Origin: Serinicoccus kebangsaanensis
GTDB taxonomy: Bacteria; Actinomycetota; Actinomycetes; Actinomycetales; Dermatophilaceae
Length of the DNA stretch: 64,000 nucleotides
Reading direction: 5' to 3'
Assembly: GCF_008919445.1 (NCBI RefSeq)
Contig: NZ_VSLG01000001.1
Coordinates: 326,421-390,420 of the forward strand
In this document: in pieces, positions 10,071 to 38,869 of the stretch
Layout: each line of letters opens with the position of its first letter
Numbering within the stretch: position 1 is the first letter of the stretch
Notes under the pieces: model-generated
Databases searched by the model: none
Told to the model about the DNA's origin: nothing
The model's input: the letters and a program-made list of their open reading frames with translations, nothing else
Position numbers and translations under genes: made by a program

Positions 10071-11276
<1,206 letters not shown>

Positions 11277-17435: not shown

Positions 17436-17444
17436 GGGTGCCTC

Positions 17445-18674
17445 CTATCCCGCCTCGACCAGCGTGACCTGGACCGTGGAGACGATGCGTTCCAGCGCCT
17501 CACGCACCACGCCGGTGTCGTGGTGCCGGACGGTGATGAACCCTTCTCCCTCGTAGGAGCTGGACGCCTGCTGCCCCCGGTGCGGCAGCCGGTGGTCCAC
17601 CACGAGCTCGCCCAGCTCCCGGTTGATCTCCTCCAGCCCGGTGACGCCGCGGACCCGTCCGTGCCCCATCCCGCGCAGGTATGCCGTGCCGCAGGCATAC
17701 ACGCGCTCGGGGCGGACGAACTCCTCCCGCAGCACCAGCCGCGACCACAGGTCGAAGAAGTCGACGTCGTGGGCCAGCCCGATCATCGAGGCCAGCTGCG
17801 CGCCCGGCGGGCGGGCACCGACCTCGGAGATCGCGACCGAGCCGTCCGGGCGGGCGAACCACTCCATGTGCGACACCGAGTTGTCCACCCCGAGCGCGGC
17901 CAGCGCCTGCGGGCCGATCCGGTGGATCTCGGCATACTCCGGCCCGTCGACGCGCTGGGGCAGCACCACCTGCCACTGCATCCACGGGTTGCGCAGCACC
18001 TCCAGCGGGGTGGGGTGGTAGTCGGCGACCGAGGAGAACACGGTCTGGCCACCCACGGTCACCGAGTCGAAGGTGTGCTCCCGGCCGGTGAGGAACTCCT
18101 CCAGCAGCCACTCCTGGCCGGACTCCCGGCGCGCCAGCTCGAGCCAGGCGTCGACGTCCCCGCGGGTGTCCAGGCGGTAGGTGGCGGTGGCGCCGGCGCC
18201 GTCCGGCGGTTTGGCCACGACCGGCAGCCCCACGAGCTCGAGGAAGTCCTCGGCCTGCTGGGTCCGGCTCACCCGCTGGTGCCGTGCGCACGGCAGGCCC
18301 GCCTGCTCCAGGACGGTCTTCATCCGCGCCTTGTCGCGCACGTTGCGGGCGCTCTGCTCCCCCATCCCGGGGATCCCCAGCGCGTCCCTCACCTGACCCA
18401 GCGGCACCTGGAGCTGCTCCAGGATCCCGATCAGCCGCTCCACCGGGCCGAGCTGGTGGCCCAGTCCGCGCACCGCGTCGGCCAGCTGCTGCGGGTCCAG
18501 CGCGTCGGTGACCTGCCAGTGCGCGGCGACGGCGGCACGCAGCTCGGGGTCGAGGTCGTCCAGCGGCGAGGCCGTGATCACCGCGAGCCGCACGTCCGGG
18601 ACGCGGGCCGCGGCCAGCACGAAGCGTCGGGTCGCCTCGAGCAGGAACGGCGCGACGAAGGCTGCGGTCACCAT
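17445..18674 (-). CDS. ATP-grasp ligase, copy A of a tandem pair
   Basis: The ATG at 18674 gives 409 residues. The ATP-grasp fold is shown by KPPDGAGATATYRLD near residue 160 and by HMEWFARPDGSVAISEVGAR near residue 275, followed by PPGAQLASM. It is a diverged paralogue of the gene that follows it. The N-terminal domain begins with VTAAFVAPFLLEATRRF, unlike the Rossmann-like start of copy B, so the carboxylate substrate probably differs. Two ligases in a row would suit stepwise ligation of two building blocks, but no peptide or small-molecule product can be named. Confidence 0.75.
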   Translation of the reverse strand: MVTAAFVAPFLLEATRRFVLAAARVPDVRLAVITASPLDDLDPELRAAVAAHWQVTDALDPQQLADAVRGLGHQLGPVERLIGILEQLQVPLGQVRDALGIPGMGEQSARNVRDKARMKTVLEQAGLPCARHQRVSRTQQAEDFLELVGLPVVAKPPDGAGATATYRLDTRGDVDAWLELARRESGQEWLLEEFLTGREHTFDSVTVGGQTVFSSVADYHPTPLEVLRNPWMQWQVVLPQRVDGPEYAEIHRIGPQALAALGVDNSVSHMEWFARPDGSVAISEVGARPPGAQLASMIGLAHDVDFFDLWSRLVLREEFVRPERVYACGTAYLRGMGHGRVRGVTGLEEINRELGELVVDHRLPHRGQQASSSYEGEGFITVRHHDTGVVREALERIVSTVQVTLVEAG

Positions 18675-18733
18675 GTCGAGAGCGTAGTAGGACGGCGGGC
18701 GGCCCGGAAGGAGCTGCGGGCCGGGCACAGCCC

Positions 18734-19186
18734 TCAGCCGCCGGCCCGGTCACGCTCCTCCAGCTCGACCACGGCGTCCAGGAAGCGCGGGCCGGCGCCC
18801 TGGGCGGCCAACCGGTCCTCCGCGTTGCGCAGCGGGCAGGTCTGCTGCGACAGGCATCCGCACCCGATGCAGCCGGTCAGCCCGTCCCGCAGCTGCTGCA
18901 GGGCACGGATGCGCAGGTCGAGCGTGTCGTGCCACGACCTGGACAGGCGCGCCCACTCCTCCCGGGTCACCGGCCGGTCCAGCGGCACCGTCGCCAGCGC
19001 CTCCGACACCTCCGCGAGCGACAGCCCGACCGCCTGGGCCGCCCGGATGACGGCGAGGCGGCGCAGCACGTGGCGTGGGTAGCGGCGCTGGTTGCCGGGC
19101 GTGCGGTGCGCCTCGATCAGGCCGCGCGCCTCGTAGAAGCGCAGCGCCGACGCACTCACGCCCGCGCGTCGCGACACCTGGGTCAC
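18734..19186 (-). CDS. soxR: SoxR-type redox-sensing MerR regulator
   Basis: I choose the GTG at 19186 (150 residues) because GAGGAG lies six bases upstream and it gives the normal SoxR length; a GTG at 19222 would add 12 residues. The N-terminal MerR winged helix (SRRAGVSASALRFYEARGLI) leads through a dimer helix to C-x2-C-x-C-x5-C (CIGCGCLSQQTC, near residues 104-115), which binds the [2Fe-2S] cluster of SoxR. The oxidised protein activates its target promoters. It diverges from the SDR-QueA pair across a perfect dyad, so those genes are its likely targets. Confidence 0.92.
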   Translation of the reverse strand: MTQVSRRAGVSASALRFYEARGLIEAHRTPGNQRRYPRHVLRRLAVIRAAQAVGLSLAEVSEALATVPLDRPVTREEWARLSRSWHDTLDLRIRALQQLRDGLTGCIGCGCLSQQTCPLRNAEDRLAAQGAGPRFLDAVVELEERDRAGG

Positions 19187-19233
19187 GGTCAGCTCCTCGC
19201 CCTTGACGTCAGCGTGCCGCACCCGACGCTTGA

Positions 19234-19257: not shown

Positions 19258-19286
19258 GCTGGGTGCACCACACGAAAGGACATCTC

Positions 19287-19982
19287 ATGCCACTCAGCCT
19301 CATCACCGGAGCCACCGCAGGCCTCGGGCGCGCGCTCGCCGTCGCCCTGGACGATGCCGGGCACGACCTCGTCCTCGACGGTCGCGACCCCGCACGCCTG
19401 GACGAGCTGCGGGCGGACCTCCCGCGGGCCACCGTCATCGGTGGCGACGTCACGGACCCCGAGCACCGTCAGGCGCTCGTGGACGCCGTCGGCGGGCGCG
19501 GGCTGGACCTGCTGGTGCACAACGCCAGCACCCTGGGCCGGTCACCCCTCCCCCACCTGGCCCAGCTCGACCACACCACCCTGCGGGCCGTGCTCGAGGT
19601 CAACCTGGTCGCCCCGCACGCCCTCACCACCGCTGTGCTGGACCAGCTGCAGCGGGCCGGTGGGACGGTCCTCACCCTCTCCTCGGACGCCGCCGTCGAG
19701 CACTACGAGAGCTGGGGCGGCTACGGCGCGAGCAAGGCCGCCCTGGACCACCTCGCCGGCACGCTGGGCGCCGAGCACCCCGGGCTGCGCGTCTACGCCG
19801 TCGACCCGGGCGACATGCGCACCGCGATGCACCAGGCCGCCTTCCCGAACGAGGACATCTCCGCCCGCCCCCTGCCGGAGGACCTGGCCGTCCCCGGCAT
19901 CCTCGCCCTGCTGCGGGACCGGCCGGACAGCGGCCGCTACCGCGCCGCCGAGCTGATCGCCGAGAGCGAGGTCCGGGCATGA
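19287..19982 (+). CDS. Short-chain dehydrogenase/reductase
   Basis: The ATG at 19287 follows GAAAGGA by six bases and gives 231 residues. TGATAGLG is the nucleotide-binding turn, HNAS the structural motif, and Ser (LSSDAA) with YGASK the catalytic set of classical SDRs. It reduces or oxidises a carbonyl or alcohol with NAD(P)H; the substrate is unknown. It starts 30 bases after the candidate SoxR box and its stop overlaps the start of the QueA-like gene, so redox-cycling signals probably induce both. Confidence 0.87.
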   Translation: MPLSLITGATAGLGRALAVALDDAGHDLVLDGRDPARLDELRADLPRATVIGGDVTDPEHRQALVDAVGGRGLDLLVHNASTLGRSPLPHLAQLDHTTLRAVLEVNLVAPHALTTAVLDQLQRAGGTVLTLSSDAAVEHYESWGGYGASKAALDHLAGTLGAEHPGLRVYAVDPGDMRTAMHQAAFPNEDISARPLPEDLAVPGILALLRDRPDSGRYRAAELIAESEVRA

Positions 19983-21076
19983 CGACATCGCACGCCGTCA
20001 CCAGGCTCGCCGAGCGACCGAGCACGACCTTCCACGGGACCGTCCCGACCTTCGCCGGGAGACCCGCCGAGGAGCGCGGTGCGGGACGGGACGCGGTGCG
20101 CCTGCTCGTGGCGCGGCCGAGCGGCATCGAGCACCACGCCTTCGGCGACATCGCGGACCAGCTGGACCCCGGCGACGCGCTCGTGGTCAACACCTCGGCC
20201 ACGGTGGCGGGCGAGATCGACGCCGACCTGTGGCGACCCGGTGGGCCGGAGGTGCAGGCACCGGCGCGTGAGGTGGTGCTGCACGTCGCCAGCCCGCTCG
20301 GTGAGGACGAGTGGGTGGTGGAGCTGCGCACCGCTCCCGACGCCGCCCGCGCGGTCCTCGACGCCACCGAGGGTGACCGCGTGCGGGCCGACGGCTTCGC
20401 GCTCACCCTGCTGGGGGCATACCCGCACCACGGCTCGCCGACGGCGACGGGCAACCGGCTCTGGCGAGCCCGCGCGGAGGGCGACGTCCGGGGCGTCCTC
20501 GACCGGGCCGGCCGGCCGATCGCCTACGGCTACCTCGAGCGGCCCTGGCCGCTGTCCACCTACCAGACGGTCTTCTCCACCGTGCCCGGGAGTGCCGAGA
20601 TGGCCTCCGCCGGACGACCCTTCACCCCGGACCTGGCCCTGCGGCTCGTCGCGCACGGAGTCCACCTCGCGCCGGTGGTGCTCCACACCGGCCTGTCCTC
20701 GCAGGAGGCGGGTGAGCCGCCCCAGCCGGAGCGGTTCGAGGTCCCCGCCAGCACCGCCGAGCTGCTCAACCACGTGACACGGGCACGCGGCCGGGTCGTC
20801 GCGGTCGGCACCACCGCCACCCGGGCGGTCGAGTCGGCGGTGATCGACGGCCGGGTGGTCCCGGCCTCCGGCTGGACCGAGCGGGTGATCACGCCCTCGG
20901 ACCCGCCCGCCGTGGTGGGCGGCCTGGTCACCGGGTGGCACGACGACGGTGCCTCGCACCTGCTGCTGGTCGAGGCGGTGGCGGGCGCCCGGCTCGCTCA
21001 GCGTGCCTACGACGCGGCGCTGCGGGAGGGGTATGCCTGGCACGAGTTCGGCGACTCCGCCCTGTTCCTGCCCTGA
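19979..21076 (+). CDS. QueA-like S-adenosylmethionine:tRNA ribosyltransferase-isomerase paralogue
   Basis: This 365-residue protein shares the QueA family blocks PGSAEMASAGRPFT, LHTGLSSQE, VGTTATRAVES and the C-terminal GYAWHEFGDSALFL. QueA adds the epoxycyclopentanediol moiety from SAM to 7-deazaguanine in tRNA during queuosine synthesis. No tgt, queC, queE or queF is nearby. The gene instead sits under a SoxR box with an SDR, so it may have a different acceptor or role. The ATGA overlap with the SDR gene shows coupling. Family assignment is firm, function less so. Confidence 0.8.
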   Translation: MTTSHAVTRLAERPSTTFHGTVPTFAGRPAEERGAGRDAVRLLVARPSGIEHHAFGDIADQLDPGDALVVNTSATVAGEIDADLWRPGGPEVQAPAREVVLHVASPLGEDEWVVELRTAPDAARAVLDATEGDRVRADGFALTLLGAYPHHGSPTATGNRLWRARAEGDVRGVLDRAGRPIAYGYLERPWPLSTYQTVFSTVPGSAEMASAGRPFTPDLALRLVAHGVHLAPVVLHTGLSSQEAGEPPQPERFEVPASTAELLNHVTRARGRVVAVGTTATRAVESAVIDGRVVPASGWTERVITPSDPPAVVGGLVTGWHDDGASHLLLVEAVAGARLAQRAYDAALREGYAWHEFGDSALFLP

Positions 21077-21389: not shown

Positions 21390-22781
21390 GTGGCCGATGA
21401 CGAACGCACCGCACCGCAGCGGGTCGAGCGGGTGGCCGACACCTGGCTCCCGACGGACCACGGCACCTTCCGGATGACGGCATACCGGGACGACCGGGGC
21501 ACCGACCACGTCGCCCTCAGCCAGGGCGTGAGCGACGACGACGGCCCCGACGCCGACCCGCCCCTGGTGCGGATCCACTCCGAGTGCCTGACCGGCGACG
21601 CGCTGGGATCGCGGCGGTGCGACTGCGGCGAGCAGCTGCAGGCCTCCCTGCACCTGCTGGGGCGGACCGGACGGGGCGTGGTGATCTACGTGCGGGACCA
21701 CGAGGGTCGTGCCATCGGCCTCGGCGAGAAGCTGCGCGCCTACGCCCTGCAGGACCGCGGCGCGGACACCGTCGACGCCAATCTCGCCCTCGGTCACCCG
21801 GCGGACGCCCGCACCTACGCCCACTGCGCCGCCATGCTGCTCGACCTGGGTGTCGACCGGGTCCGCCTGCTCTCGTCCAACCCGGCGAAGCAGATCGCGC
21901 TGCGGGCGCTGGGCATCCAGGTGTCCGAACGGATCCCCATCGTCGTCCCCCACCGGGACGAGAATGCCGCCTACCTTGCGACCAAGCGCACCCGGATGGG
22001 CCACGACCGGACCGCCCCGCCCGAGTGGGAGGAGCTGCTGGCCGGGAGGGTGCCGGCGACCGGGGTGCTGGCGCAGCGCTACGGCGACCTGGCCCAGGGC
22101 GAGGGTCCCCTCGTGGTGGCCCAGCTCGGTCAGAGCCTGGACGGCTTCATCGCGACCCGGACGGGCGACGCGACCTTCGTCACCGGCGAGCTGGACCGCG
22201 AGCACCTGCACCGGCTGCGTGCCCTGGTCGACGCGGTCGTCGTGGGTGGCGCGACGGTCGCCTGCGACGACCCGCGGCTCACCGTCCGGGCGGTGACCGG
22301 CCGGCACCCCACCAGGGTGGTCCTGGACCCGCGGGGGGTCACCCCCCGGACGGCCTCGGTGCTGACCGACGGCGCCGCCCCGACCCTCTGGGTCGTGGGG
22401 CCGGAGGTCGAGGCCGGAGCGCCCGGCGACCACGTCGACGTGGTCCGCTGGCCGACGGACGGGCCGATGGACCCCCGGGCGGTGGTCGACCTGCTGGCCG
22501 CCCGGGACCTGCGCCGTGTCCTCGTCGAGGGCGGAGGGCGGCTGGTCTCGGCCTTCGTCCGCGCCGAGGTCGTGCACCGGCTCTACCTCACCACCGCCCC
22601 GGTGCTCATCGGCGACGGGGTCCCCGGGCTGCGCGTCGAGGGCCAGGACCGGCTGACCGACGCGCTGCGCCCGCCGGCCCGGCGCTACCAGCTCGGGGAG
22701 GACGTCGTCACCGAGCTCGAGCTCACGCCCCGCCCCGCCACCTGCTCGACCCTGGCCGCCGACGTCCCCGACGCGAGCTGA
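21390..22781 (+). CDS. GTP cyclohydrolase II fused to RibD-type pyrimidine reductase
   Basis: GTG 21390 gives 463 residues. Residues about 20-210 are GTP cyclohydrolase II: zinc ligands in SECLTGDALGSRRCDCGEQL, then KLRAYALQDRGADTVDAN and SSNPAKQIALRALGI. Residues about 240-445 are the RibD C-terminal reductase (SLDGFIATRTGD, DAVVVGGATVACDDPRLTVR, VEGGGRLVSAF). In riboflavin synthesis these carry out GTP ring opening and ribose-chain reduction. The deaminase domain of RibD and the DHBP synthase domain of many RibA proteins are both missing, and no ribE or ribH is near. The context points to a specialised pyrimidine or pteridine product rather than riboflavin. It starts a packed plus-strand cluster. 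Confidence 0.88.
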   Translation: MADDERTAPQRVERVADTWLPTDHGTFRMTAYRDDRGTDHVALSQGVSDDDGPDADPPLVRIHSECLTGDALGSRRCDCGEQLQASLHLLGRTGRGVVIYVRDHEGRAIGLGEKLRAYALQDRGADTVDANLALGHPADARTYAHCAAMLLDLGVDRVRLLSSNPAKQIALRALGIQVSERIPIVVPHRDENAAYLATKRTRMGHDRTAPPEWEELLAGRVPATGVLAQRYGDLAQGEGPLVVAQLGQSLDGFIATRTGDATFVTGELDREHLHRLRALVDAVVVGGATVACDDPRLTVRAVTGRHPTRVVLDPRGVTPRTASVLTDGAAPTLWVVGPEVEAGAPGDHVDVVRWPTDGPMDPRAVVDLLAARDLRRVLVEGGGRLVSAFVRAEVVHRLYLTTAPVLIGDGVPGLRVEGQDRLTDALRPPARRYQLGEDVVTELELTPRPATCSTLAADVPDAS

Positions 22782-22808
22782 CGTCGGCGCAGCACCGAGG
22801 ATGACCGC

Positions 22809-23534
22809 ATGAGGCCAGCACCCCCGGTGGACCGCGCGGGAGCACGCCCCGTGGGCTTCGGCGCGGTGGAGGGCGCCGTCGTCCTGACCCCTCTCGTCCT
22901 CGCCCTCGCCCTGGTCCTGCTGGTCGCGCCCTCTCCGGCGGTCGGTGCCGCGGCGGTCGCCGCGTCCCTCGTGGTGCCGGCCGCGGTCGCGGTCACGCTG
23001 CTGCGTCGCCGGGCGGTCAGCGCACCGGACGCGATCACCCTGGGGCGCGTCGTGCTGACCGGTGCCCTCTCGGCGGCGGCCGTGCTCGTCCTCGCCGACG
23101 AGCTGGCCGAGCGCACCTGGACCGTGGCCGCGGTCGTGGGGCTGGCGCTGCTCATGGACGCCGTGGACGGATGGGTCGCCCGACGCACCAGCAGCGCGAC
23201 GCTGGCGGGTGCGCGTCTGGACATGGAGTCGGATGCGGCGCTGCTCCTCGTGCTGTCCCTCCTCGCCGTCCCCACGGTGAGCTGGTGGGTGCTGGGCATC
23301 GGGGCGATGCGCTACCTGTTCGTCCTGGCCTCGTGGGTGCGTCCGGCCCTGCAGGCGGACCTGACCTACAGCGAGCTGCGTCGGGTCGTCGCGGCGCTGC
23401 AGGGGGTCGCGCTGCTCATCGTCCTCGTGCCGGTCGTGCCCGTCCCGCTGGCGACCGTCGCGGCGGCTCTCGCCCTGGTCGCGCTGGCCGGTTCGTTCGC
23501 CCGGGACGTGGTGGCGCTGGAGGCGAGGACGTGA
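22809..23534 (+). CDS. CDP-alcohol phosphotransferase family membrane protein
   Basis: This 241-residue integral membrane protein has about six hydrophobic segments. The family motif D-x2-D-G-x2-A-R-x8-G-x3-D-x3-D is intact (from DAVDGWVARR to GARLDMESD, about residues 117-139). Such enzymes move a phosphoalcohol from a CDP-linked donor, most often CDP-diacylglycerol, to an acceptor such as glycerol phosphate, inositol or serine. The acceptor cannot be read from sequence. Its stop overlaps the GTG of the dehydrogenase gene, so it belongs to the cluster. Confidence 0.85.
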   Translation: MRPAPPVDRAGARPVGFGAVEGAVVLTPLVLALALVLLVAPSPAVGAAAVAASLVVPAAVAVTLLRRRAVSAPDAITLGRVVLTGALSAAAVLVLADELAERTWTVAAVVGLALLMDAVDGWVARRTSSATLAGARLDMESDAALLLVLSLLAVPTVSWWVLGIGAMRYLFVLASWVRPALQADLTYSELRRVVAALQGVALLIVLVPVVPVPLATVAAALALVALAGSFARDVVALEART

Positions 23535-24556
23535 GCGCCGACGCTGCGACGGCGCTCGCCTACTGGGCCACCGGGCCGGGGTCGGGCGAGCTGCGCACCG
23601 AGACCCTGCCCGAGCCCGGGCCGGACGAGGCCCTCGTCCGCACCGTGGTGAGCGGCGTGAGCAGGGGCACCGAGATGCTCGTGCGGCGAGGGGGTGTCCC
23701 GGCGTCGCAGGTGGACCGGATGCGGGCGCCCTTCCAGTCGGGCACCTTCCCCTTCCCGGTGAAGTACGGCTACCTGTCGGTCGGCGTGGTCGAGCGCGGC
23801 CCGGACGACTGGCTGGGCGCGCGCGTGTTCTGCCTGCACCCGCACCAGGACCTGTATGTCGTGCCCGTGAGCGCCCTGGCCCGGGTCCCCGACGACGTCC
23901 CTTCCGGAAGGGCGGTGCTCGCCGGGACCGCGGAGACCGCCCTCAACGCGCTCTGGGACGCACCGCCCTGTGCTGGCGACCGCATCGCCGTGGTGGGTGG
24001 CGGGCTGGTCGGGGGCGCCGTCGCCCTCTTGCTCGGCCGCTTCCCGCTGGCCCGGCTGCAAGTGGTGGAGGACGACCCTGAGCGGCGGGCGCAGCTGGCC
24101 GCCGTGGGTCTGGACGCGGTGCCGCCCCCGGAGGCGCTCCCCGACTGCGACCTGGTCTTCCACGCCTCGGCCAGCGAGCCGGGCCTCGCCCTGGCACTGT
24201 CGATCGCCGGTGACGACGGCACGGTCGTGGAGCTGTCCTGGTTCGGGTCGCCGTCGCCGCGCGTGCCCCTCGGTGAGGACTTCCACGCGAGACGGCTGAG
24301 CCTGACGGCGAGCCAGGTCTCCCGCGTCGGCGCCGCCCGGCGGAGCCGCCGGGACACCGCCTCCAGGCTCCGGACCGCCCTGGAGCTCCTCGCCGACCCC
24401 GCCTTCGACATACTCCTCGGGGCCGAGCATCCGTTCGGCGACATCACCGCCGTGTTCGACGACCTGGACCACCACCGGGCACCAGCCGGGTGCCCCGTCC
24501 TGACCTATCCACAGCCGACTCCGCCGGCCGGACCTGACCGGCCGCACCACACCTGA
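23531..24556 (+). CDS. Medium-chain dehydrogenase/reductase (alcohol dehydrogenase-like)
   Basis: GTG 23531 overlaps the previous stop and gives 341 residues. The N-terminal GroES-like domain contains VSRGTEMLVRRG, and the Rossmann turn is VVGGGLVGGAVALLLG near residue 155. The usual catalytic-zinc ligands and structural-zinc cysteine lobe of alcohol dehydrogenases are not evident, so it may be a zinc-independent member, similar in outline to BchC-type enzymes. It would oxidise or reduce an alcohol on the cluster's product. The next gene starts 15 bases later. Confidence 0.75.
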   Translation: MSADAATALAYWATGPGSGELRTETLPEPGPDEALVRTVVSGVSRGTEMLVRRGGVPASQVDRMRAPFQSGTFPFPVKYGYLSVGVVERGPDDWLGARVFCLHPHQDLYVVPVSALARVPDDVPSGRAVLAGTAETALNALWDAPPCAGDRIAVVGGGLVGGAVALLLGRFPLARLQVVEDDPERRAQLAAVGLDAVPPPEALPDCDLVFHASASEPGLALALSIAGDDGTVVELSWFGSPSPRVPLGEDFHARRLSLTASQVSRVGAARRSRRDTASRLRTALELLADPAFDILLGAEHPFGDITAVFDDLDHHRAPAGCPVLTYPQPTPPAGPDRPHHT

Positions 24557-24571
24557 CTCCGAAGGAGCCCC

Positions 24572-24952
24572 ATGTTCGGACTCACCGTCCGCGATCACGT
24601 CATGGTCGCCCACAGCCTGCCCGATCCCTTCTTCGGTCCGGCGCAGGCGCTGCACGGCGCGACCTACGTGATCGAGGCCACCTGGCGCCGACGGGAGCTC
24701 GACTCCCACGGCGTGGTCGTGGACATCGGGGCGGCGGGGCAGAGCCTGTCCGAGGTGCTGGAGTCGCTGCGCTACACCAACCTGGACGACCACCCCGCCT
24801 TCGCCGACCGGCTCAGCACCACCGAGGCCGTGGCGGCGCACGTGGCCCACGCGCTGGCCGAGCGCGACGACACCGGGATCGACGGGATCGGCGTGGTGGT
24901 GCGGGAGCACCCCGACGCGTGGGTGACCTATGACCTCGACCTCCGGACCTGA
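24572..24952 (+). CDS. Pyruvoyl-tetrahydropterin synthase/QueD homologue with altered active site
   Basis: The protein has 126 residues, with GAAGGAG well placed upstream of ATG 24572. The fold is shown by VMVAHSL, LHGATYVIEA, VVVDIG, YTNLDDHP, STTEAVA and the pterin-anchoring glutamate in VVREHPDAW (Glu112). Family enzymes bind zinc through three histidines, here matched by His14 and His28, but the third is replaced by Ala30. The catalytic cysteine position four residues before His28 is Ala24. Substrate-ring recognition therefore seems kept while the normal chemistry is lost or changed. Its end overlaps the glycosyltransferase gene by 23 bases. Confidence 0.82.
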   Translation: MFGLTVRDHVMVAHSLPDPFFGPAQALHGATYVIEATWRRRELDSHGVVVDIGAAGQSLSEVLESLRYTNLDDHPAFADRLSTTEAVAAHVAHALAERDDTGIDGIGVVVREHPDAWVTYDLDLRT

Positions 24953-26000
24953 GCGCGGCCCGTCTCGTGCCATCCTCGTGCCCGGTGACCTCGTCGGGCC
25001 GAGCGGCGGCAACCGCTACAACGCCCGCGTGCTGGCCGAGCTGGCCGCGATGGGGGTGGCGGTCGTCGAGGAGCGGATCCCCGGCGACTGGCCGCGAGCG
25101 ACGGAGGACGACCGGCGCGCCCTGGACCAGGCGCTGACGAGGCACGGCGACGTCGTGGTGGACGGGCTCATCGGGTCGGCTGCACCGGCCGAGCTCGCCT
25201 CGGCCCGCGCACGCGGCGTCCGAGTCCACGTGCTGGTGCACCTGCCGCTCCCCGTCGAGAACGGGGCAGGGGCCCGGGAGCAGGCCCGGATCTCGGCCTC
25301 CGAGCACGAGGCGCTGCGCGTCGCTGACACCGTGGTCGCGACGAGCAGGTGGGCGCGCGAGGATCTGGCGCGCCGGTACGACCTCCGCCACGTGCACGCC
25401 GTGCCCCCAGGCGTGGACGTCGCGCCGGTGTCCCGCGGCAGCAGCCCACCTCACCTGCTCTTCGTCGGGGCCCTCACCCGGCGGAAGAACCCCCTCGCCC
25501 TCGTCGACGCACTCGCAGGAGTCCGCGACCGCTCCTGGACCGCGTCACTCGTCGGGCCGGCCGGCGCCGACCGGGCCTACGTCGACGCCGTCCGCGACGC
25601 AGCGGCCGCCCTGAGGGAGCGGGTCCGGGTGCTCGGCACCCGCAGCGACGGCGAGCTCGAAGCGGTGTGGCGCACCGCCGATCTGCTCGTCCTCCCCTCG
25701 ACGGCCGAGACCTACGGCATGGTGGTGAGCGAGGCGTTGGCCCACGGTGTCCCCGGGGTCGTCGCGAGCGGAACCGGGGCGGTGGAGGCCCTCCGCGGCT
25801 CGGGCGAGCGGGACGGGCTGCCCGACGCCGGTGCGGTGGTGGACATCGACCTGCCGGCAGCGTGGGGCGAGGCCCTCGGACGGTGGCTCGACCACCCTGA
25901 CCTGCGCGGACGGTGGCGGGCGGCGGCCCTGGACCACCGGGCTAGACTGCGACGATGGGGCACGGCCGCGAGCGAGTTCCGGGCGGTGCTGGGGTGGTAG
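24930..26000 (+). CDS. GT4-type glycosyltransferase
   Basis: This 356-residue GT-B protein overlaps the preceding gene. The N-terminal acceptor domain contains GGNRYNARVLAEL, and the C-terminal donor domain contains FVGALTRRKNPLALVDAL and the E-x7-E motif of retaining GT4 enzymes (AETYGMVVSEA, near residue 255). It should move a sugar from a nucleotide donor to an acceptor made in this cluster. It has no membrane segment and probably works at the inner face of the membrane. It overlaps the methyltransferase gene. Confidence 0.85.
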   Translation: MTSTSGPERGPSRAILVPGDLVGPSGGNRYNARVLAELAAMGVAVVEERIPGDWPRATEDDRRALDQALTRHGDVVVDGLIGSAAPAELASARARGVRVHVLVHLPLPVENGAGAREQARISASEHEALRVADTVVATSRWAREDLARRYDLRHVHAVPPGVDVAPVSRGSSPPHLLFVGALTRRKNPLALVDALAGVRDRSWTASLVGPAGADRAYVDAVRDAAAALRERVRVLGTRSDGELEAVWRTADLLVLPSTAETYGMVVSEALAHGVPGVVASGTGAVEALRGSGERDGLPDAGAVVDIDLPAAWGEALGRWLDHPDLRGRWRAAALDHRARLRRWGTAASEFRAVLGW

Positions 26001-26833
26001 CCCGTCCGGTCGCGCCCGAGTGGCTGGCTCTGCGACGGGCCGCCGACCACCAGGCCCGCGCGGGGGCGCAGGGCCTGCTGGACGAGCTCACCGGGCACCT
26101 GAGGGACCGGGACGAGCTCCTCGTCGTCGACGTCGGCGCGGGCACCGGCTCGAACCAGGCCTGGCTGGCCCCTCGCCTGCCCGGACCACAGCACTGGATC
26201 CTCGTCGACCACGACCCCGCCCTCCTGGGGTCGGTCGAGGCCGACGGCGTCTCCGGGGAGATCGAGACCGAGCGTGCGGTCGCGACGGTGGGCGACCTCG
26301 CTGAGGTGCTGCCTCCCGACCGCGACGTGGTGCTGACCTGCGCGGCCCTGCTGGACCTGCTCCGGCCCGCCGAGCTCGACGCGCTCGCCGAGGTGATCGC
26401 CCCGGCCGGTCGACCCGGCGTCCCGGCGCTGCTCAGCCTCACCGTCACCGGGGAGGTCGCGCTCGACCCCGGGCACCCCGACGACGCGACGGTCGCGGCC
26501 GCCTTCGACGCCCATCAGCGACGCGACGGCCTGCTCGGCCCTGATGCGGCGACCACCATGGCGGCGGCGCTCCGACGTCGCGGGGCCCACGTCGAGCTGG
26601 CCGCGACCGACTGGGTCCTCGGCCCCGCCGATGAGGTCCTGCTCCGCCGCTACCTCGACGACCGTGCGGCGGTCGTCGTCGAGGAGCGTCCTGACCTGGA
26701 CTCCCTCGCGCGCGCCTGGCGTGCCGAGCGCGAGTGGCAGCTGCAGGCCGGTGCGCTCACCGTGCGCGTCGGGCACGTGGACCTGCTCAGTCTGCCGTCG
26801 GACGCCCCGCAGCAGACCCGGACGGGCCGGTGA
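25994..26833 (+). CDS. Class I SAM-dependent methyltransferase
   Basis: I place the start at GTG 25994, which overlaps the glycosyltransferase stop; an ATG at 25955 is possible but has no ribosome site. The SAM motif I is VVDVGAGTGSN, followed by an acidic motif II (ILVDHDPALL) and LTCAALLDLL. The protein has about 279 residues and no membrane segment. It should methylate an O, N or C atom of the cluster's product. It ends inside the start of the flippase-like gene. Confidence 0.8.
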   Translation: MVARPVAPEWLALRRAADHQARAGAQGLLDELTGHLRDRDELLVVDVGAGTGSNQAWLAPRLPGPQHWILVDHDPALLGSVEADGVSGEIETERAVATVGDLAEVLPPDRDVVLTCAALLDLLRPAELDALAEVIAPAGRPGVPALLSLTVTGEVALDPGHPDDATVAAAFDAHQRRDGLLGPDAATTMAAALRRRGAHVELAATDWVLGPADEVLLRRYLDDRAAVVVEERPDLDSLARAWRAEREWQLQAGALTVRVGHVDLLSLPSDAPQQTRTGR

Positions 26834-27816
26834 CCCCGCCTCACGACGGTGGCGGGTCGGCACCCGGTCGGACCCGCCTGGTGGTCCTCGCGACCCTGCA
26901 GGTCCTGGTCACGGTGGTGGTGCTCGGCCTCATCGTCTCCCAGTGGGGCCTGAGGCCCTTCACGACGGCGGCTCGGTCGCTGCCGTGGTGGGCCATCGCC
27001 CTCGGCATCCTGCTCGGCGCCGTGGGGGTGCTCGCCCAGGCGTTGCGCTGGCGGCTGGTGGCGCGGCACCACCACATCCGTATGCCGGTGGGCCCGGCGC
27101 TCGCCCGGTGCTGGCAGGCGGCCTTCCTCAACAGCCTGCTGCCCGGAGGACTCGCCGGCGACGTGCTGCGGGCCGCCGACGACAGCAGTGACGCCGAGGT
27201 GAGCGCCGGTCGGCGCGCCCTCGCCAGCGGATTCGCCGCGGTCACCGCGGAGCGTCTCGCGGGCACCACGGTGGTCTTCGCGGCGGCGGCGGTGGCTCTG
27301 GTGCCCCTGGCCTCGCTCGCCGCGCTCGCCTGCCTGGTCGTCGCGGTGGTCACCGCCGTGGTGGCGTGGCGCTGGCTCCGTGTCCTGCCCCGGGTGGACC
27401 TGGGCGCGGTGGTGCTGCTGTCGGTCGCGGGGTGGGCGGCCTTCGTCGGGATGTTCGTCCTCGCCGTGGCGGTGGTGGCACCGGAGGTCGACCCGACCCT
27501 GGCCCCAGGTGTCGCGGCGGTCTCCATCGCGGGCATGTCGGTGCCGATCGCCGTGGGCGGGTGGGGCACCCGGGAGGCGGCCGCCGGCTGGATCTTCACC
27601 GTGGTCGGCCTCGACGCCGGGACCGGCGTCACCGTGTCCATCGGCTACGGCATCATGGCCCTGCTCTCCACGCTCCCCGGCGCCGTGGTGCTCGCCGTGC
27701 GGCTGGCTCCGCGCGTGCGTGCGGCGGGCGATGCCCGGGGCCGGCGCCGGGCTCGGGCGGACACCCACCAGGGCACCGACGACCTCGCCGGAGGCGACCG
27801 CACGCACCGCAGGTGA
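26830..27816 (+). CDS. Flippase-like membrane protein (LPG-synthase transmembrane family)
   Basis: GTG 26830 overlaps the previous TGA and gives 328 residues with about eight transmembrane helices. The family blocks NSLLPGGLAGDVLRA and VGGWGTREAAAGW are present. This family (lysylphosphatidylglycerol-synthase transmembrane domain, UPF0104) includes lipid flippases that often accompany glycosyltransferases. There is no C-terminal aminoacyl-transferase domain. As the last gene of the cluster, it may translocate a glycolipid or lipid-linked product. The basic, hydrophilic tail is cytoplasmic. Confidence 0.82.
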   Translation: MTPPHDGGGSAPGRTRLVVLATLQVLVTVVVLGLIVSQWGLRPFTTAARSLPWWAIALGILLGAVGVLAQALRWRLVARHHHIRMPVGPALARCWQAAFLNSLLPGGLAGDVLRAADDSSDAEVSAGRRALASGFAAVTAERLAGTTVVFAAAAVALVPLASLAALACLVVAVVTAVVAWRWLRVLPRVDLGAVVLLSVAGWAAFVGMFVLAVAVVAPEVDPTLAPGVAAVSIAGMSVPIAVGGWGTREAAAGWIFTVVGLDAGTGVTVSIGYGIMALLSTLPGAVVLAVRLAPRVRAAGDARGRRRARADTHQGTDDLAGGDRTHRR

Positions 27817-27836: not shown

Positions 27837-28088
27837 TCACCGGCCGAGGACGATCCGCACGACTCCTCCGCCGGGCACGGTCACCGTGCACCGCCCCGAG
27901 CCGTCGTCGGCGTGCGCGGCGACGACATACTCCCCCGGCTGCGGCACGTCGAGCCAGAACTGCCCGTCGCCGTCGCTGAGCAGCGCGACGTCGGGCACCG
28001 GGACGGGCCCCGCCTCCAACGCCACCCGGGCGTCGGGGACGGGGCTGCCGCTCGCATCGAGGACGATGCCGCGGATCCGTCCGGTCAT
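27837..28088 (-). CDS. Small carboxypeptidase-regulatory-like domain protein
   Basis: ATG 28088 gives 83 residues that form one complete CarboxypepD_reg-like beta-sandwich (GRIRGIVLDASGSPVPDARV, then GEYVVAAHADD). It has no signal peptide. It starts 10 bases after the V8-like peptidase gene, with which it is surely co-transcribed, and may bind or chaperone that peptidase. It converges on the flippase-like gene. Confidence 0.7.
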   Translation of the reverse strand: MTGRIRGIVLDASGSPVPDARVALEAGPVPVPDVALLSDGDGQFWLDVPQPGEYVVAAHADDGSGRCTVTVPGGGVVRIVLGR

Positions 28089-28098
28089 GATGGTGGGC

Positions 28099-29031
28099 TC
28101 AGCCCTTCCAGAGCTTGAGGTTGTCGAACACCGGCTTGTTGATCCGGGTCCCGCTGTTGCTGCTGGAGCCACCGTAGGCGTGGATCGCCACGGCATACCG
28201 GCCGCCGTTCTCGATGACGTAGACCCCGCTGCCGCTCTGGCCTCCGGCCGTGTCGAGCGTGTAGTAGACCTTGCGGGCACTGAGCGAGGCGACGCCGCTC
28301 CAGTGGTACCACTGCGTGCCGCTGGGCTTGTCGCCCGGGTAGCCCGACAGGTTGAGGGTCTTGCCGTTCAGCGTGGCGTCGGACCAGTTGGCGAAGCCGA
28401 GCCAGCCGGTCTCGTTGCCCTTGGGCTCGCTGAGCAGCATCGCGCCGTAGTCGTACTCGTGGTTCGGGCTGCTGGTCCAGCCGTGCACGCTGCGCAGCTG
28501 CGCGCGGGGCACGACGACCTTGCCGTAGGGCAGGCTCGCGCCGTTGCGCCCGGGCATGACCTCGACGCTGCGGACCCAGCCGTGCCGCTGGGTCCCGGGG
28601 GCGTGGATGAACACGCAGTGGCCCGCGGTGATGACGCTCTTCGGGCCGTTGAACCAGCCGGTGCCGATCCAGCGCGAGCCGTCGTTGGCGGTGATGAGCA
28701 GCGAGCAGTGCACCCGCCACGGGTAGCTGCTGGTGCCGGTGATCTGCACCCGGTTGTCCGGACCCTGGACCGACTCGGTCGAGGGGTCCGGCGGGCCGTA
28801 GGTGGCCTCACCGATCGGCCGCAGGCCCGACGTGTCGGGTGCGGTCTCCTCCGCGCTGAGCGCCTCGGCCATGGCGGCCGCGACCGGCTCGAGGTCGAGC
28901 CCCTCGACGCTCTGCTTCTGGGCGTTGTCCCCCGTCTGCGGGTCCTCGGTGAGCTCCTCGGTGCCGACCTCGTCGGTCGGCTCCGGCTCCGGCGCCACCG
29001 GCTCGTGCGGGTTCGTGGTGTCGTGCGACAT
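28099..29031 (-). CDS. V8-like (glutamyl endopeptidase type) serine peptidase without signal peptide
   Basis: ATG 29031 follows GAGGAG by seven bases, and the 310-residue product begins with a long acidic, disordered segment (about residues 1-90) rather than a signal peptide. The catalytic triad is visible: VITAGHCVF, YDYGAMLL and GGQSGSGVY. PA-clan peptidases of this type are normally exported, so a cytoplasmic form, non-classical export or a missed leader are all possible. The acidic N-terminus may act as an inhibitory propeptide. It is a distant relative of the secreted peptidase at 5958-6872. Confidence 0.82.
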   Translation of the reverse strand: MSHDTTNPHEPVAPEPEPTDEVGTEELTEDPQTGDNAQKQSVEGLDLEPVAAAMAEALSAEETAPDTSGLRPIGEATYGPPDPSTESVQGPDNRVQITGTSSYPWRVHCSLLITANDGSRWIGTGWFNGPKSVITAGHCVFIHAPGTQRHGWVRSVEVMPGRNGASLPYGKVVVPRAQLRSVHGWTSSPNHEYDYGAMLLSEPKGNETGWLGFANWSDATLNGKTLNLSGYPGDKPSGTQWYHWSGVASLSARKVYYTLDTAGGQSGSGVYVIENGGRYAVAIHAYGGSSSNSGTRINKPVFDNLKLWKG

Positions 29032-29259
29032 GGTGTCTCTCCTCGTGTGCGCGCACCGGCCCCTGCGCCGGTGCGTCGAGGAGTAGGAGCCGCTGGTATG
29101 CCCTCAGATACGCGAGGCTGCGAGGTCGGCTCGACGTGGCTGCTCTGTCCTGGGGCGGGGGGAGAGGCGCTGCTACGGTTGGATCCGGGTCAGGGCGGGG
29201 AACGGACTTCGTCCGGCCACGGACCGGCGAGAGCCGCCGGTCCGCGGGAGGAATTGAAG

Positions 29260-29712
29260 ATGAGCATCGCCAAGCGAGTCCTGTCCGCCGCTGCCGCACT
29301 GGCCGTGGCCGGGAGCATGATGACGGCCGCGCCGGCCTCGGCGGCCGGTCAACGCTGCGACGGCAGCCAGGTGCGGACCTGTGTCTCTGTCGCGTTGCCT
29401 GGCAACGACGTCCGGGCTAGAGCCATCATCCGGGACGTGAAAGGCGACGGGCTGGATTTCAAGGTCCGCGTTACTGACGTCCAGCTGCAGCGGCGCAGCG
29501 GAGGCAAGTGGGTGACCCTGCAGACCGACAGAGACTACGACGGCTGGCACCGGTCCGTGGACAAGTCTCGGACCTACCTCCTGCACGGCTGCCACGGGAA
29601 CGGCTATGTGCTCGTGCGTGCCCGCGCCCACTTCGACTGGAAGCGGGTCGGCCAGGCCGGGGAGTGGATGAACTCCAAGGCGGTGCGGGTGTACTGCCAC
29701 GTGCACATCTGA
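29260..29712 (+). CDS. Small secreted protein of unknown function
   Basis: ATG 29260 follows GGGAGGAA by seven bases and gives 150 residues. A signal peptide (AKRVLSAAAALAVAGSMMTA, cut after ASA) is clear. The mature part of about 120 residues is basic and holds four cysteines (RCDGS, RTCVS, HGCHG, VYCHVH), which could form two disulphides. The family is not recognised. It is the last chromosomal gene before the att repeat of the integrated element, whose hairpin may serve as its terminator. Confidence 0.75.
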   Translation: MSIAKRVLSAAAALAVAGSMMTAAPASAAGQRCDGSQVRTCVSVALPGNDVRARAIIRDVKGDGLDFKVRVTDVQLQRRSGGKWVTLQTDRDYDGWHRSVDKSRTYLLHGCHGNGYVLVRARAHFDWKRVGQAGEWMNSKAVRVYCHVHI

Positions 29713-29776
29713 CCCGTCGAGCTGGTGCTCACGGGTCCAGGTGACACGTAGGTCACACGCAGCTGGTAACAACACA

Positions 29777-29845
29777 GCCCCTGACTGGCGTTTTCGCTGG
29801 TCAGGGGCCTGCTGCGTTGGTGGACGATACTGGGATCGACCCAGT
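29777..29845. repeat. Left att repeat (tRNA-Val 3' fragment and hairpin)
   Basis: This 69-bp sequence matches 40188-40256 with four mismatches by eye. Positions 29818-29845 are the last 28 nt of tRNA-Val including CCA; 29778-29807 is a hairpin (CCCCTGAC/GTCAGGGG) that ends the tRNA transcript in the right copy. The rest of the tRNA is missing, so this is not a tRNA gene. Confidence 0.88.
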
Positions 29846-29960
29846 TTGAGCACGATGCTGCGATACTGAGGTTCGCCTGCACTAAAGGACTCTGAACTGC
29901 GTATACGTTGAACAGTATCGCGTGTCATATGGTACCAGAACTGGACAGACAGGTACTCTG

Positions 29961-29980
29961 ATCCTGCACGTATCCTGCAC
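29961..29980. promoter_or_regulatory. Candidate integrase arm-type site, left
   Basis: ATCCTGCACGTATCCTGCAC is itself a near-direct repeat of ATCCTGCAC and lies just upstream of the integrase gene. It recurs with 19 of 20 bases at 40151-40170, close to the other att copy. Arm-type sites of tyrosine integrases show this arrangement. Confidence 0.65.
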
Positions 29981-29992
29981 GGAAGGCATCCC

Positions 29993-31120
29993 ATGCCAGC
30001 TCGCAAGAAGCGCGGCTTCGGTCAGCTGCGTCGCCTCCCCAGCAAGCGGTGGCAGGCGTTCTACACGGGGCCAGACTCCAACTTGCACTACGCCCCCACC
30101 ACCTTTGAGACCGCCGAGGACGCCGAAGCATGGTTGGCCGCCGAGCGGCGACTCACGACAGGAGATCAGTGGTCCACCCCAAGGGAGCGCATGAGCACCC
30201 AGCGTCAGCGCGAGGCCACCACCCTCGCGGCTTACGTCGAGCGATGGATGAAGCATCGCGACCTCAAGCCGCGCACCCGCGAGCACTACTTGCAGCTTCT
30301 CGACCGGCACATCCTCCCAGCGCTCGGCGCTCTCCCCCTTCGCGCCCTCACGAGTGAGGTGGTCGGAAACTGGTACGCCGAGCTCGATCCCCAAAAACCA
30401 ACAATCCGGTCTCACGCTTACGGGCTGCTGCGCACGATCCTGGGCAGCGCAGTGCTCGACGAGAAGATCGCGGCGAACCCCGTGCACATTCGCGGCGCGG
30501 GCAACGCCAAGCGCGCGACACGAACCGAGCCCGCGACGCTGGACCAACTCGCCACTCTGGTCGATGCCATGCCCGAGCGTTACAAGGTCATGACTCTTCT
30601 GGCCGCGTGGTGTGGCCTTCGGTTCGGGGAGCTGACCGAGCTGCGCCGCAAGGACATCGACCTCACCAACGGTGTGATCAAAGTCCGACGTGCCGTTACC
30701 CGCGTGAGAGGACAGTTCGTGGTCGGCACACCCAAGAGCGCCGCCGGAATCCGCGACGTCGCTATCCCCCCGCACCTGGTCCCTGCCGTCCGCGAGCACC
30801 TGGCCGCGAATATGACCGGGAGGGACGGCCTGCTGTTCCCCTCGGCTGGGGATCCGGCGAAGCACCTGGCCCCGGCCTCCCTTTACGGCGCGTTCTATCG
30901 TGCCCGAGAGGCCGCCGACCGCCCGGACCTGAGGTGGCACGACCTACGCCACACCGGGGCGGTGCTGGCAGCGCAGACTGGCGCCACGCTAGCCGAACTC
31001 ATGGGACGGCTTGGGCACTCCACACCAGCCGCAGCGATGCGCTACCAACATGCTGCGAAGGGTCGAGACGCCCAGATCGCTGCAGCTCTTTCCGCCATGG
31101 CACAGGGCAACCCTGGATGA
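29993..31120 (+). CDS. int: Tyrosine site-specific integrase
   Basis: This 375-residue recombinase starts at ATG 29993. Residues 1-60 are an arm-binding type N-terminus, 75-160 a core-binding SAM-like domain (YVERWMKHRDLKPRTREHY), and 175-360 the catalytic domain. Catalytic residues are Arg in GLRFGELTEL, His and Arg in WHDLRHTG, His in RLGHST, and the nucleophile Tyr in AMRYQHA. It should insert and excise the element at tRNA-Val(GAC). No excisionase gene is recognisable next to it. Confidence 0.95.
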   Translation: MPARKKRGFGQLRRLPSKRWQAFYTGPDSNLHYAPTTFETAEDAEAWLAAERRLTTGDQWSTPRERMSTQRQREATTLAAYVERWMKHRDLKPRTREHYLQLLDRHILPALGALPLRALTSEVVGNWYAELDPQKPTIRSHAYGLLRTILGSAVLDEKIAANPVHIRGAGNAKRATRTEPATLDQLATLVDAMPERYKVMTLLAAWCGLRFGELTELRRKDIDLTNGVIKVRRAVTRVRGQFVVGTPKSAAGIRDVAIPPHLVPAVREHLAANMTGRDGLLFPSAGDPAKHLAPASLYGAFYRAREAADRPDLRWHDLRHTGAVLAAQTGATLAELMGRLGHSTPAAAMRYQHAAKGRDAQIAAALSAMAQGNPG

Positions 31121-31492
31121 TTAGGTGCGTCGGCACTGCTGGTGGGTGCCTGTGGGGAGAAGTGGCGGGAACCTCCCTACCCATCCTCCTGACCTGCGCC
31201 GGCACCTCAGGCAGCGCGCCTGTGACAGGCCTGTGACCGCTGCCTCGGGGGCTGAGACCTTGCGGTCGTCACCACGTCGACCAACCCCAGGACGGATGAG
31301 TGAACAGATGAGAGGTCTGCCGATCGACCTCGATCGGCGCCTGGTCATCCGCCGCCGGTCGAGGAAGCCCCTTACGCGCCCGATCCTCACCCACGACTAC
31401 GTGCGAGGTGTCCGCTCGACGTCGGGTGGCGGTGCCGCCGTGAGTTCGTGGCCCTTGCGCTCGCGCAGCGTGTCATCGGCTCCTACCGTTGA
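31121..31492. other. Non-coding stretch after integrase
   Basis: I see no convincing gene in these 372 bases; the open frames are short and have poor composition. A TTGACA at 31489-31494 upstream of the SDR relic may be a remnant -35 element. Confidence 0.5.
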
Positions 31493-31831
31493 CAGATAGA
31501 CTCCTCCCCTGCCCGTCCCGTCGCCCTCGTCGCGGGCGGCTCGCGCGGTCTCGACCTCTTGGTCGCCGCCGAGCTGGCTGGCCGCGGCTACGACGTCGCG
31601 ATCTGCTCGCGCCATCTGGACCAGGCACGCCAGGGTGCCGAGGTCGCCCAGCAGCGGGCCGCCGCGGGCGAGCCTGCGGCAGGGAGGATCGTCGCCACCC
31701 GGTGCGACGTGTCGGACCGGCAGGCCGTGCGGGACGTGGTGCGCCAGGTGGAGGCCGAGCTCGGCCCGGTCGAGGTGCTCCTGCACGTGGCCGGCATCAC
31801 CCAGGCAGCGTGCCACGGCTATCGCTGCTGA
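31493..31831 (+). pseudogene. N-terminal fragment of a short-chain dehydrogenase
   Basis: The frame from 31493 reads PVALVAGGSRGLDLLVAAEL, then YDVAICSR, TRCDVSDR and HVAGI, which is the first 100 or so residues of an SDR. There is no start codon before TTG 31559, the last glycine of the nucleotide-binding GxxxGxG motif is Asp, and homology ends at AGI before the catalytic Ser-Tyr-Lys. It is a truncated relic. Its break abuts a fragment of an unrelated permease gene. Confidence 0.75.
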
Positions 31832-31967
31832 CGCATCGACAGCACGAGACCTGCACGTGCCCGTCGGTGCGTCAGTCTTGGCTGGGCTCGTGGTCTCGCT
31901 GCTCGGCACCCGCTACTTCCTGTGGCTGCTGCACCGGATGCGCGCAGACGGATGGCCAACTGTGTGA
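31832..31967 (+). pseudogene. C-terminal fragment of a FecCD-type iron-siderophore permease
   Basis: The frame ending at TGA 31965-31967 reads LHVPVGASVLAGLVVSLLG and then TRYFLWLLHRMR, which matches the final helix and tail of FecCD permeases (PVGxxTALxGxPxFLWLL). Only about 40 residues remain. The direct fusion to an SDR fragment shows a large deletion or recombination joint. Assignment rests on this one motif. Confidence 0.6.
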
Positions 31968-32288
31968 TTCTCCCACCCCGGGGTCGCTTCTCGTTCTCGG
32001 AGATCACGAGGACGTGGTCGATGACTCTGATCCGTCGAAGCGAGGGGTTGCTGACCTGCCCTGTCCTGACGATGCCACTCGTGTCCTTGCTGATCTCAAG
32101 GTTCCGTCAGTACGACGTCGCGCGTCGAGGCAATCGCCGGTGGACGAGCTGACCGCCGGCGCCATAGGTGAAGATGGCCGACCTGCGGTTGACCGCCAGC
32201 GGTTCCGACCCCCGATAACCAAGCCGGCCCTGGTGGCGAAAATGCCGACTACTCGACCCCGCCGACCAGCAGGCCAGCTCAGAGCCTC
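31968..32288. other. Stretch without a recognisable gene
   Basis: These 321 bases hold only short open frames without family features; they lie between gene fragments and the 3' end of the DoxX-like gene and are probably further debris. Confidence 0.45.
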
Positions 32289-32834: not shown

Positions 32835-32880
32835 GTCGGCACGCTCCTGTCTCATCGGATCCTTTTCGAACACACCCAAT

Positions 32881-32899
32881 ATACTACTATATGTAGTAT
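32881..32899. promoter_or_regulatory. Palindromic operator upstream of the DoxX-like gene
   Basis: ATACTACTATATGTAGTAT consists of perfect 7-base arms with a 5-base centre in a locally AT-rich patch. On the minus strand TATATT follows directly and could be the -10 element of the DoxX-like gene, so a bound repressor would block it. GntR (YtrA type) and BlaI proteins use such TAGTA/TACTA dyads; the adjacent GntR relic is the likely former regulator. Confidence 0.65.
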
Positions 32900-33016
32900 T
32901 ACGCCACGCAGTAGCACGCGAAGGCGCACCTCAAGGACACCTCGAGCCGTCTCCGGACGGTGGAGCATGAGCAGCAGGGACAGCGTCAGACCCCGCGTGC
33001 GCGTGAGGGAGCAGGC

Positions 33017-33290: not shown

Positions 33291-33350
33291 CAGTCTCGGC
33301 CCCACCCGGGACATGGGTGGGGCCGAGGGTAGGTGGTGATCGGTGATCGG

Positions 33351-34166: not shown

Positions 34167-34187
34167 GCGGGAACTCCTGTGGTGGGT

Positions 34188-35231: not shown

Positions 35232-35297
35232 CAGGGCACCTCCTGGGTACCCACTGTGTCACACGCCCTCTGCGCTGGCTCCTTGTCACCCTCGGCT

Positions 35298-38859: not shown

Positions 38860-38869
38860 GGGCCGGGGC

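Follow-up and report, generated by a model that had tools for sequence, protein, structure and literature searches.

A conserved operon joining a GTP cyclohydrolase II to a PTPS-IV protein in Serinicoccus kebangsaanensis, and a candidate pathway to a GTP-derived, lipid-linked product

Introduction

What does a GTP cyclohydrolase make when its gene stands among genes for sugar transfer, methyl transfer and lipid headgroup chemistry? The question is raised by a 64,000-nucleotide stretch of the Serinicoccus kebangsaanensis genome (NCBI RefSeq assembly GCF_008919445.1, contig NZ_VSLG01000001.1, positions 326,421 to 390,420 of the forward strand), here called the window, in which a seven-gene operon occupies positions 21390-27816 of the plus strand (Table 1). 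Its genes encode a fusion of GTP cyclohydrolase II (GCHII) with a RibD_C reductase, a CDP-alcohol phosphotransferase (CDPalc), an MDR dehydrogenase (DH), a PTPS-like protein, a GT4 glycosyltransferase, a methyltransferase (MT) and a flippase-like membrane protein (FLIP). An initial annotation had taken these seven genes for a candidate undescribed pathway to a glycosylated, methylated, possibly lipid-linked product, and its account of the genes holds: the Pfam families are as named (the DH by its predicted model), four of the six junctions overlap (4, 23, 46 and 4 bp) and the remaining two are gaps of 27 and 15 bp, given the chosen starts of the DH and flippase genes, which lie inside longer open reading frames (ORFs) from 23171 and 26734. 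We find that the operon is a dedicated biosynthetic gene set, and we assign a probability of about one half to the reading that it encodes a dedicated pathway from GTP to a glycosylated, methylated, phosphatidyl-linked and exported pterin-like product.

Results

The same gene set recurs in other genomes, and the arrangement in the window is therefore not due to chance. We compared 116 loci, comprising the window, eight distant loci, 20 loci from the same order (taken as regions from among 45 PTPS-bearing genomes), seven from plasmids and 80 named loci, the last being the best 80 among 105 hits to short patterns taken from the window PTPS and a biased sample for that reason; family presence was scored with profile searches at E 1e-6, or with a single-sequence search for a sulfatase-like family. 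PTPS was found in all 116 loci, DH and GT4 in 115 each, CDPalc in 94, MT in 92, FLIP in 82, GCHII in 81, RibD_C in 60, a creatininase-family gene in 57 and a sulfatase-like protein in 31. DH and PTPS genes are adjacent on one strand in 98 of 115 loci, and PTPS and GT4 genes in 108 of 115; CDPalc, DH, PTPS, GT4, MT and FLIP occur as a full set in 74 of the 116, and GCHII accompanies RibD_C in 43, fused to it in 20.

Related gene sets were found in Actinomycetota, Pseudomonadota and Halobacteria. Within the order, PTPS was detected at E 1e-6 in 45 of 297 genomes, the window's own included, and is patchy in its own family (6 of 24 genomes); all 20 regions from the order hold DH, PTPS and GT4 together. 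A tblastn search with the DH retrieved 30 of 72,556 plasmid records, including Streptomyces, Microbacterium, Methylosinus, Rhizobium, Thiodictyon and Haloarcula, seven of which entered the 116 loci, with L189-L195 staying outside. The clusters of Agrobacterium and Rhizobium combine genes for a sulfatase, a flippase-like protein, CDPalc, RibA, DH, PTPS, GT4, MT, the RibD family and a cytochrome b; annotated stretches of Thiodictyon, Streptomyces and Microbacterium carry the cluster; in Methylosinus it is present without a CDP-alcohol gene or cyclohydrolase; the annotated stretch of a Rhodobacteraceae bacterium has only DH, PTPS, MT and RibD; and haloarchaeal records hold the cluster to varying extent. 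A cytochrome b gene lies within three proteobacterial clusters (L102, 13485-14042; L103, 13960-14493; L192, 11970-12509), the protein of L103 being a Pfam cytochrome b561. On Haloarcula marismortui pNG700 (L193), the PTPS region between DH and GT4 (10018-10390) is not one open frame, and a creatininase-family gene and a CDP-alcohol gene stand near each other close by.

In a midpoint-rooted tree of 59 DHs, five halobacterial rows group together (100/98), as do six distant rows (100/99), and the two groups are jointly set apart from the remaining rows (100/100); six Pseudomonadota rows branch basally to the actinobacterial rows without forming a clade of their own. Closest to the window DH are those of two Microbacterium loci and of L081 rather than any from its own family, a placement suggestive of transfer. 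A search of a phage collection found no PTPS relatives.

The first chemical step can be predicted from the cyclohydrolase. Aligned to 2bz0, the window GCHII has three zinc Cys and places Tyr118 opposite E. coli Tyr105, residues that we take to be the zinc ligands and the catalytic Tyr, and the protein scores above the cut-off of NCBIfam TIGR00505 (222 versus 206 bits). Spoonamore and colleagues' SCO6655 of 2006, a GCHII with Met at the Tyr105 position, reportedly stops at the formyl product. Among the 81 cluster GCHII sequences compared, the 27 with Tyr (25 plus L042 and L044, read separately) all come from loci with no creatininase-family gene in the stretch; the other 54, which have Met (24), His (29) or Gln (1), without exception come from loci with such a gene, the stretches running from 6 to 21 kb for the former and from 13 to 21 kb for the latter and absence meaning absence from the stretch. 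This association between Tyr and creatininase is a new observation of this analysis. In 22 other GCHII loci (L020-L041, where L022 is the same gene as that of L049), the residue is always Tyr.

On the simplest reading, the cyclohydrolase either completes its reaction (Tyr) or leaves a formyl group for a creatininase-like protein to remove; a deformylase gene would then occur where the cyclohydrolase should halt at the formyl intermediate, so that the variants would converge on one intermediate. The creatininase-bearing clusters resemble the SCO6655 type in their residue at the Tyr105 position, whereas the window enzyme differs: we rejected it as a formyl-stopping enzyme because it has Tyr118 and not Met, and, having Tyr, it should by prediction yield the deformylated product unaided. 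No match to creatininase (PF02633) was found in the window's whole genome with a model that matches 6 of 14 control genomes. Beside the DH gene, two records of Haloarcula and one of Natrarchaeobaculum carry a GTP cyclohydrolase of type IIa/III, a family unrelated to GCHII (PF05165 match for one).

The second half of the fusion points to a pyrimidine that keeps its amino group. Pfam finds no RibD deaminase domain in the window fusion, and across the 116 loci there is a single weak match (E 1e-4), lying in L113 some 3 kb past the GCHII gene; the 2-amino group should therefore be kept. Among solved structures, the relative that scores best with the RibD_C half is 6P8C, named as a reductase of 2,5-diamino-6-ribosylamino-4(3H)-pyrimidinone 5'-phosphate (DARP), and RibD_C is present in all 27 GCHII loci without creatininase. 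Since GCHII and RibD_C are riboflavin enzymes, the operon could be taken for a riboflavin back-up or overflow system, a reading that we find barely credible: the seven genes include no deaminase, lumazine synthase or riboflavin synthase, the conserved partner genes are not riboflavin genes, and the genome has a riboflavin operon elsewhere, on contig C5, where its second PF00925 match lies among RibD, riboflavin synthase, RibBA and lumazine synthase (read from translations and from PF01872 and PF00925 matches). The fusion is thus not the only cyclohydrolase of the genome, and neither of the two findings that the initial annotation had named as refuting its reading was made, the gene set being conserved in other genomes as well.

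The PTPS-like protein is the sole PF01242 match in the window's genome, and it has lost what a synthase of this family would need. Judged by the residues that we take to be the catalytic Cys, zinc His and pterin-anchoring Glu of PTPS, the first two zinc His are invariant in the 116 loci, the third is retained in only 9, the catalytic Cys position holds Ala in 107 and Glu in 9, and Glu112 at the pterin-anchoring position is present in all 116. The window protein reads PAQALHGAT, contains no Cys and matches neither the QueD/PTPS-I motif CxxxHGH nor the PTPS-II motif CxxxxxHGH; a queuosine or tetrahydrobiopterin function was rejected, the catalytic Cys and third zinc His being gone. The best solved relative of the PTPS profile is SCO6650 of Streptomyces coelicolor (PDB 3D7J, E 7.2e-56), called an "uncharacterized protein" in that entry, which reportedly lacks zinc and PTPS activity while keeping its pterin-binding residues.

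FGPAQ, found in the window protein and in 102 of the 116 loci, is the signature of PTPS-IV, a COG0720 subfamily, in the part of the AGeNNT article devoted to it (PMC5445326). That part also reports PF00925 and PF01872 as neighbours of a 561-sequence PTPS-IV cluster, and the two families lie near PTPS in the window and in 81 and 60 of the 116 loci; the article labels PF00925 as GTP cyclohydrolase I/FolE2, the Pfam name being GTP cyclohydrolase II. With the same signature and the same GCHII and RibD_C neighbours, the window PTPS is a member of PTPS-IV as outlined in the relevant passages of two articles (PMC5445326; PMC5041015). The PTPS-IV section of the former names only PF00925 and PF01872, whereas the loci described here also hold DH, GT4, MT, CDPalc, the flippase, the creatininase, the sulfatase-like protein and an archaeal version. 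"Undescribed pathway" was therefore too strong a term, the subfamily and its GCHII/RibD_C neighbourhood being in print in those passages and the structure of SCO6650 solved; what stands is that no product is assigned to the gene set, none having been found for cluster or product in the open-licence literature. In the records examined, PTPS-IV proteins are annotated as 6-carboxytetrahydropterin synthase despite their lost catalytic residues.

FO synthesis needs a deaminated pyrimidine, and this bears on whether the cluster belongs to F420 biosynthesis, to which GCHII and RibD_C also contribute by feeding the F420 precursor FO. The cluster loci hold no RibD deaminase bar the one weak match, and no CofG or CofH (FO synthase) was found in the window's genome at E 0.001 with models that each match 11 of 14 control genomes, above cut-off in 3; PRK07360, which we take to be an FO synthase, gave no match there either. 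CofD is above its cut-off in the genome (G000:C26:13941-14798), and with no FO synthase match F420 may depend on outside FO. The F420 pathway is not known to involve a glycosyltransferase, a CDPalc or a flippase. A passage in Zallot et al. (PMC5041015) does ascribe PTPS-IV to F420 synthesis, from unpublished work, but the absence of an FO synthase match leaves this reading little weight, and we judge it highly improbable.

For the DH, Pfam gave no match at E 0.001, and NCBIfam matches were weak, BchC being the best. Its predicted model has an MDR fold (pLDDT 90.7), and among the 50 best-matching folds listed, with TM scores by query of 0.65-0.77, most belong to threonine, polyol or alcohol dehydrogenases. 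Where MDR zinc ligands are usually Cys and His, the cluster proteins have Ser (114/115) and Tyr (114/115), with one gap each.

The remaining genes point towards a membrane product. The motif DxxDGxxAR(x8)GxxxDxxxD, presumably that of CDP-alcohol phosphotransferases, is invariant in 11 of 11 aligned CDPalc sequences from Actinomycetota, Pseudomonadota and Haloarcula. The predicted model of the MT (pLDDT 91.1) has many class I methyltransferases as neighbours. The sulfatase-like protein is annotated "sulfatase" in two records, and it is fused to CDPalc in six single ORFs (L094, L095, L099, L131, L141 and L153); Pfam Sulfatase falls under its cut-off in four of six sulfatase-like proteins scanned, a PDB search with the sulfatase-like protein had nothing better than E 0.18, and a search of the window's genome, made with a single query and no positive control, found no such gene. 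Taken together, the intact CDPalc motif, the sulfatase fusions and the flippase-like protein argue for a phospholipid-type exported product, and the product of the cluster is probably lipid-linked and exported, judging by these genes.

The sulfatase-like family could also be read otherwise, as the outward-acting enzyme of a surface decoration of the membrane, either a glycolipid or something like teichoic acid, that carries the GTP-derived group as no more than a tag. The family's occurrence in 31 loci, its fusions to CDPalc and its partial likeness to Pfam Sulfatase would suit such a system, but the family went undetected in 85 of the 116 loci as well as, with the one query used, in the window's genome, and we consider the reading improbable.

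Table 1. Features of the operon, in window coordinates
Feature	Position	Strand	Basis
GTP cyclohydrolase II (GCHII)-RibD_C reductase fusion, 463 aa	21390..22781	+	PF00925 1.8e-59, residues 13-183; PF01872 3.4e-37, residues 240-414
Tyr118 codon, equivalent of E. coli GCHII Tyr105	21741..21743	+	alignment to 2bz0
CDP-alcohol phosphotransferase (CDPalc), membrane protein	22809..23534	+	PF01066 9.6e-13
Codons of CDPalc motif DxxDGxxAR(x8)GxxxDxxxD	23157..23234	+	alignment, 11/11 sequences
MDR dehydrogenase (DH), BchC-like, without usual zinc ligands	23531..24556	+	NCBIfam BchC 1.3e-7 (weak); predicted model
PTPS-IV subfamily T-fold protein	24572..24952	+	PF01242 5.3e-22
FGPAQ codons, PTPS-IV signature	24632..24646	+	sequence
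GT4 glycosyltransferase	24930..26000	+	PF13692 4.7e-21
Class I S-adenosylmethionine (SAM) methyltransferase (MT)	25955..26833	+	PF13649 2.7e-6; predicted model
Flippase-like membrane protein (FLIP), LPG_synthase_TM	26830..27816	+	PF03706 1.4e-21

A scan around the operon found no promoter or terminator. Directly upstream, at 19263-21076 (+), an SDR gene overlaps a QueA-like paralogue, which matches PF02547 at 1e-58 and reaches 129 bits against a QueA cut-off of 324. Membership in the operon was rejected for the 67-aa ORF at 21134, which the initial annotation had thought might belong, and for the QueA-like gene, each being present only in the window among the 116 loci, and for the SDR gene, found in the window and two more; the search was blastp at E 1e-5, in which a query as short as 67 aa can be missed. 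Two tandem ATP-grasp-type genes with a MerR regulator occupy 16224-19222 (-). Just past the operon, GC content drops from about 76% to 66-69% (28000-44000), and this drop, a tyrosine integrase (29993-31120) and a tRNA block (40229-40502) suggest an integrated element beside the cluster.

Discussion

The pathway that we propose builds on the observed gene content, conservation, motifs and Tyr/creatininase pattern; its first two steps draw on what is known of the enzyme families, and we infer the last three. The GCHII half would open GTP to DARP, and the RibD_C half would reduce the ribosyl group to ribityl, the 2-amino group being retained for want of a deaminase. The MDR dehydrogenase may then oxidise the side chain: with C1' already a CH2 through the action of RibD_C, a ketone at C2' could close on the 5-amine to give a pterin resembling dihydroneopterin. 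The skeleton that FolE reaches through an Amadori shift would in this way arise independently of FolE, with PTPS-IV, devoid of its catalytic residues, binding the intermediate and guiding its closure. GT4 would add a sugar and MT a methyl group. Finally, a phosphatidyl group would be attached by CDPalc, and the flippase-like protein would turn the product outward, where in some hosts the sulfatase-like membrane domain may act on it. Overall, the initial annotation's interpretation is partly supported: a dedicated and conserved gene set, a second cyclohydrolase in the genome, a start from an un-deaminated pyrimidine (GCHII with RibD_C and no deaminase) and the presence of sugar-, methyl- and lipid-type genes speak for it, and its pterin core and lipid link are putative, as is the order of steps.

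Several findings weigh against this pathway. FolE is present in the window's genome, and a further route to pterins would have to be justified beside it; the loss of the MDR zinc ligands makes simple alcohol oxidation by the DH less likely. In the GCHII tree, sequences of the Met and His types group in a single clade (86/87) that coincides with the creatininase gene, and the 54 cases may therefore represent a single event; this tree omits L042 and L044, too short in the alignment, its outgroup row, from L027, is a wrong-strand translation and unusable, and its bootstrap is unsettled. The sole creatininase protein scanned, from L105, matches Pfam Creatininase (1.5e-64) and scores higher with the MftE model (141 bits) than with ArfB, the NCBIfam model of the archaeal FAPy deformylase (37 bits, cut-off 180), reaching neither cut-off. 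The Haloarcula locus L104 has a cyclohydrolase IIa and no creatininase gene in its stretch; as this type should also halt at the formyl compound, a deformylase would have to be encoded elsewhere. RibD_C occurs in only 16 of the 57 creatininase loci and was not found in the stretches of the other 41, which may use a reductase encoded elsewhere, and in 32 of the 116 loci the stretch lacks GCHII and creatininase alike. Lastly, the eight distant loci hold a core of GCHII-RibD_C, DH, PTPS and GT4 without CDPalc, MT or FLIP detectable by profile models, three of them on stretches of less than 12 kb.

These distant loci are also a ground for supposing that the core makes a soluble glycosylated, methylated pterin or pyrimidine, and that CDPalc and the flippase-like protein serve a separate lipid or transport function, as would fit their lower counts (94 and 82 of 116, against 116 for PTPS). 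We regard such a soluble product as possible, if rather unlikely, given that CDPalc stands near the core with its motif intact in Actinomycetota, Pseudomonadota and Haloarcula alike and that in the window the CDPalc and DH genes share 4 bp.

A more specific version of the lipid-linked pathway can be put forward, tentatively and as an unlikely one. The product might be a (tetrahydro)pterin, built independently of FolE, bearing sugar and methyl groups, exported and anchored in the membrane, where it would serve as a lipid-linked redox cofactor or shield. GCHII (or the archaeal cyclohydrolase III), RibD_C and MDR oxidation would replace the Amadori step in a route common to bacteria and haloarchaea, and in some proteobacteria the cytochrome b561 of the same cluster might serve this cofactor.

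Parts of the proposed pathway have counterparts in known systems. The archaeal ArfA/ArfB/ArfC route uses a cyclohydrolase, a creatininase-family deformylase and a RibD_C-type reductase acting before deamination to arrive at a ribitylaminopyrimidine. The same kinds of enzyme occur here, but inside a tailoring cluster, and the window has them as one fusion with no deformylase gene in the genome. The synthesis of phosphatidylglycerol- or phosphatidylinositol-type lipids with LtaS/MprF-like export uses CDPalc and LPG_synthase_TM-type domains, which the clusters share, some with a sulfatase-like protein as well; here, in contrast, these domains are linked to GTP-derived chemistry.

Through the Tyr/creatininase pattern, the first reaction of the pathway is open to direct test. 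As an orphan set of genes that crosses domains, the pathway points to a small molecule not yet known, which may be a membrane cofactor or a lipid headgroup of a new class, and it would give a function to PTPS-IV and to the extra cyclohydrolases of actinobacteria.

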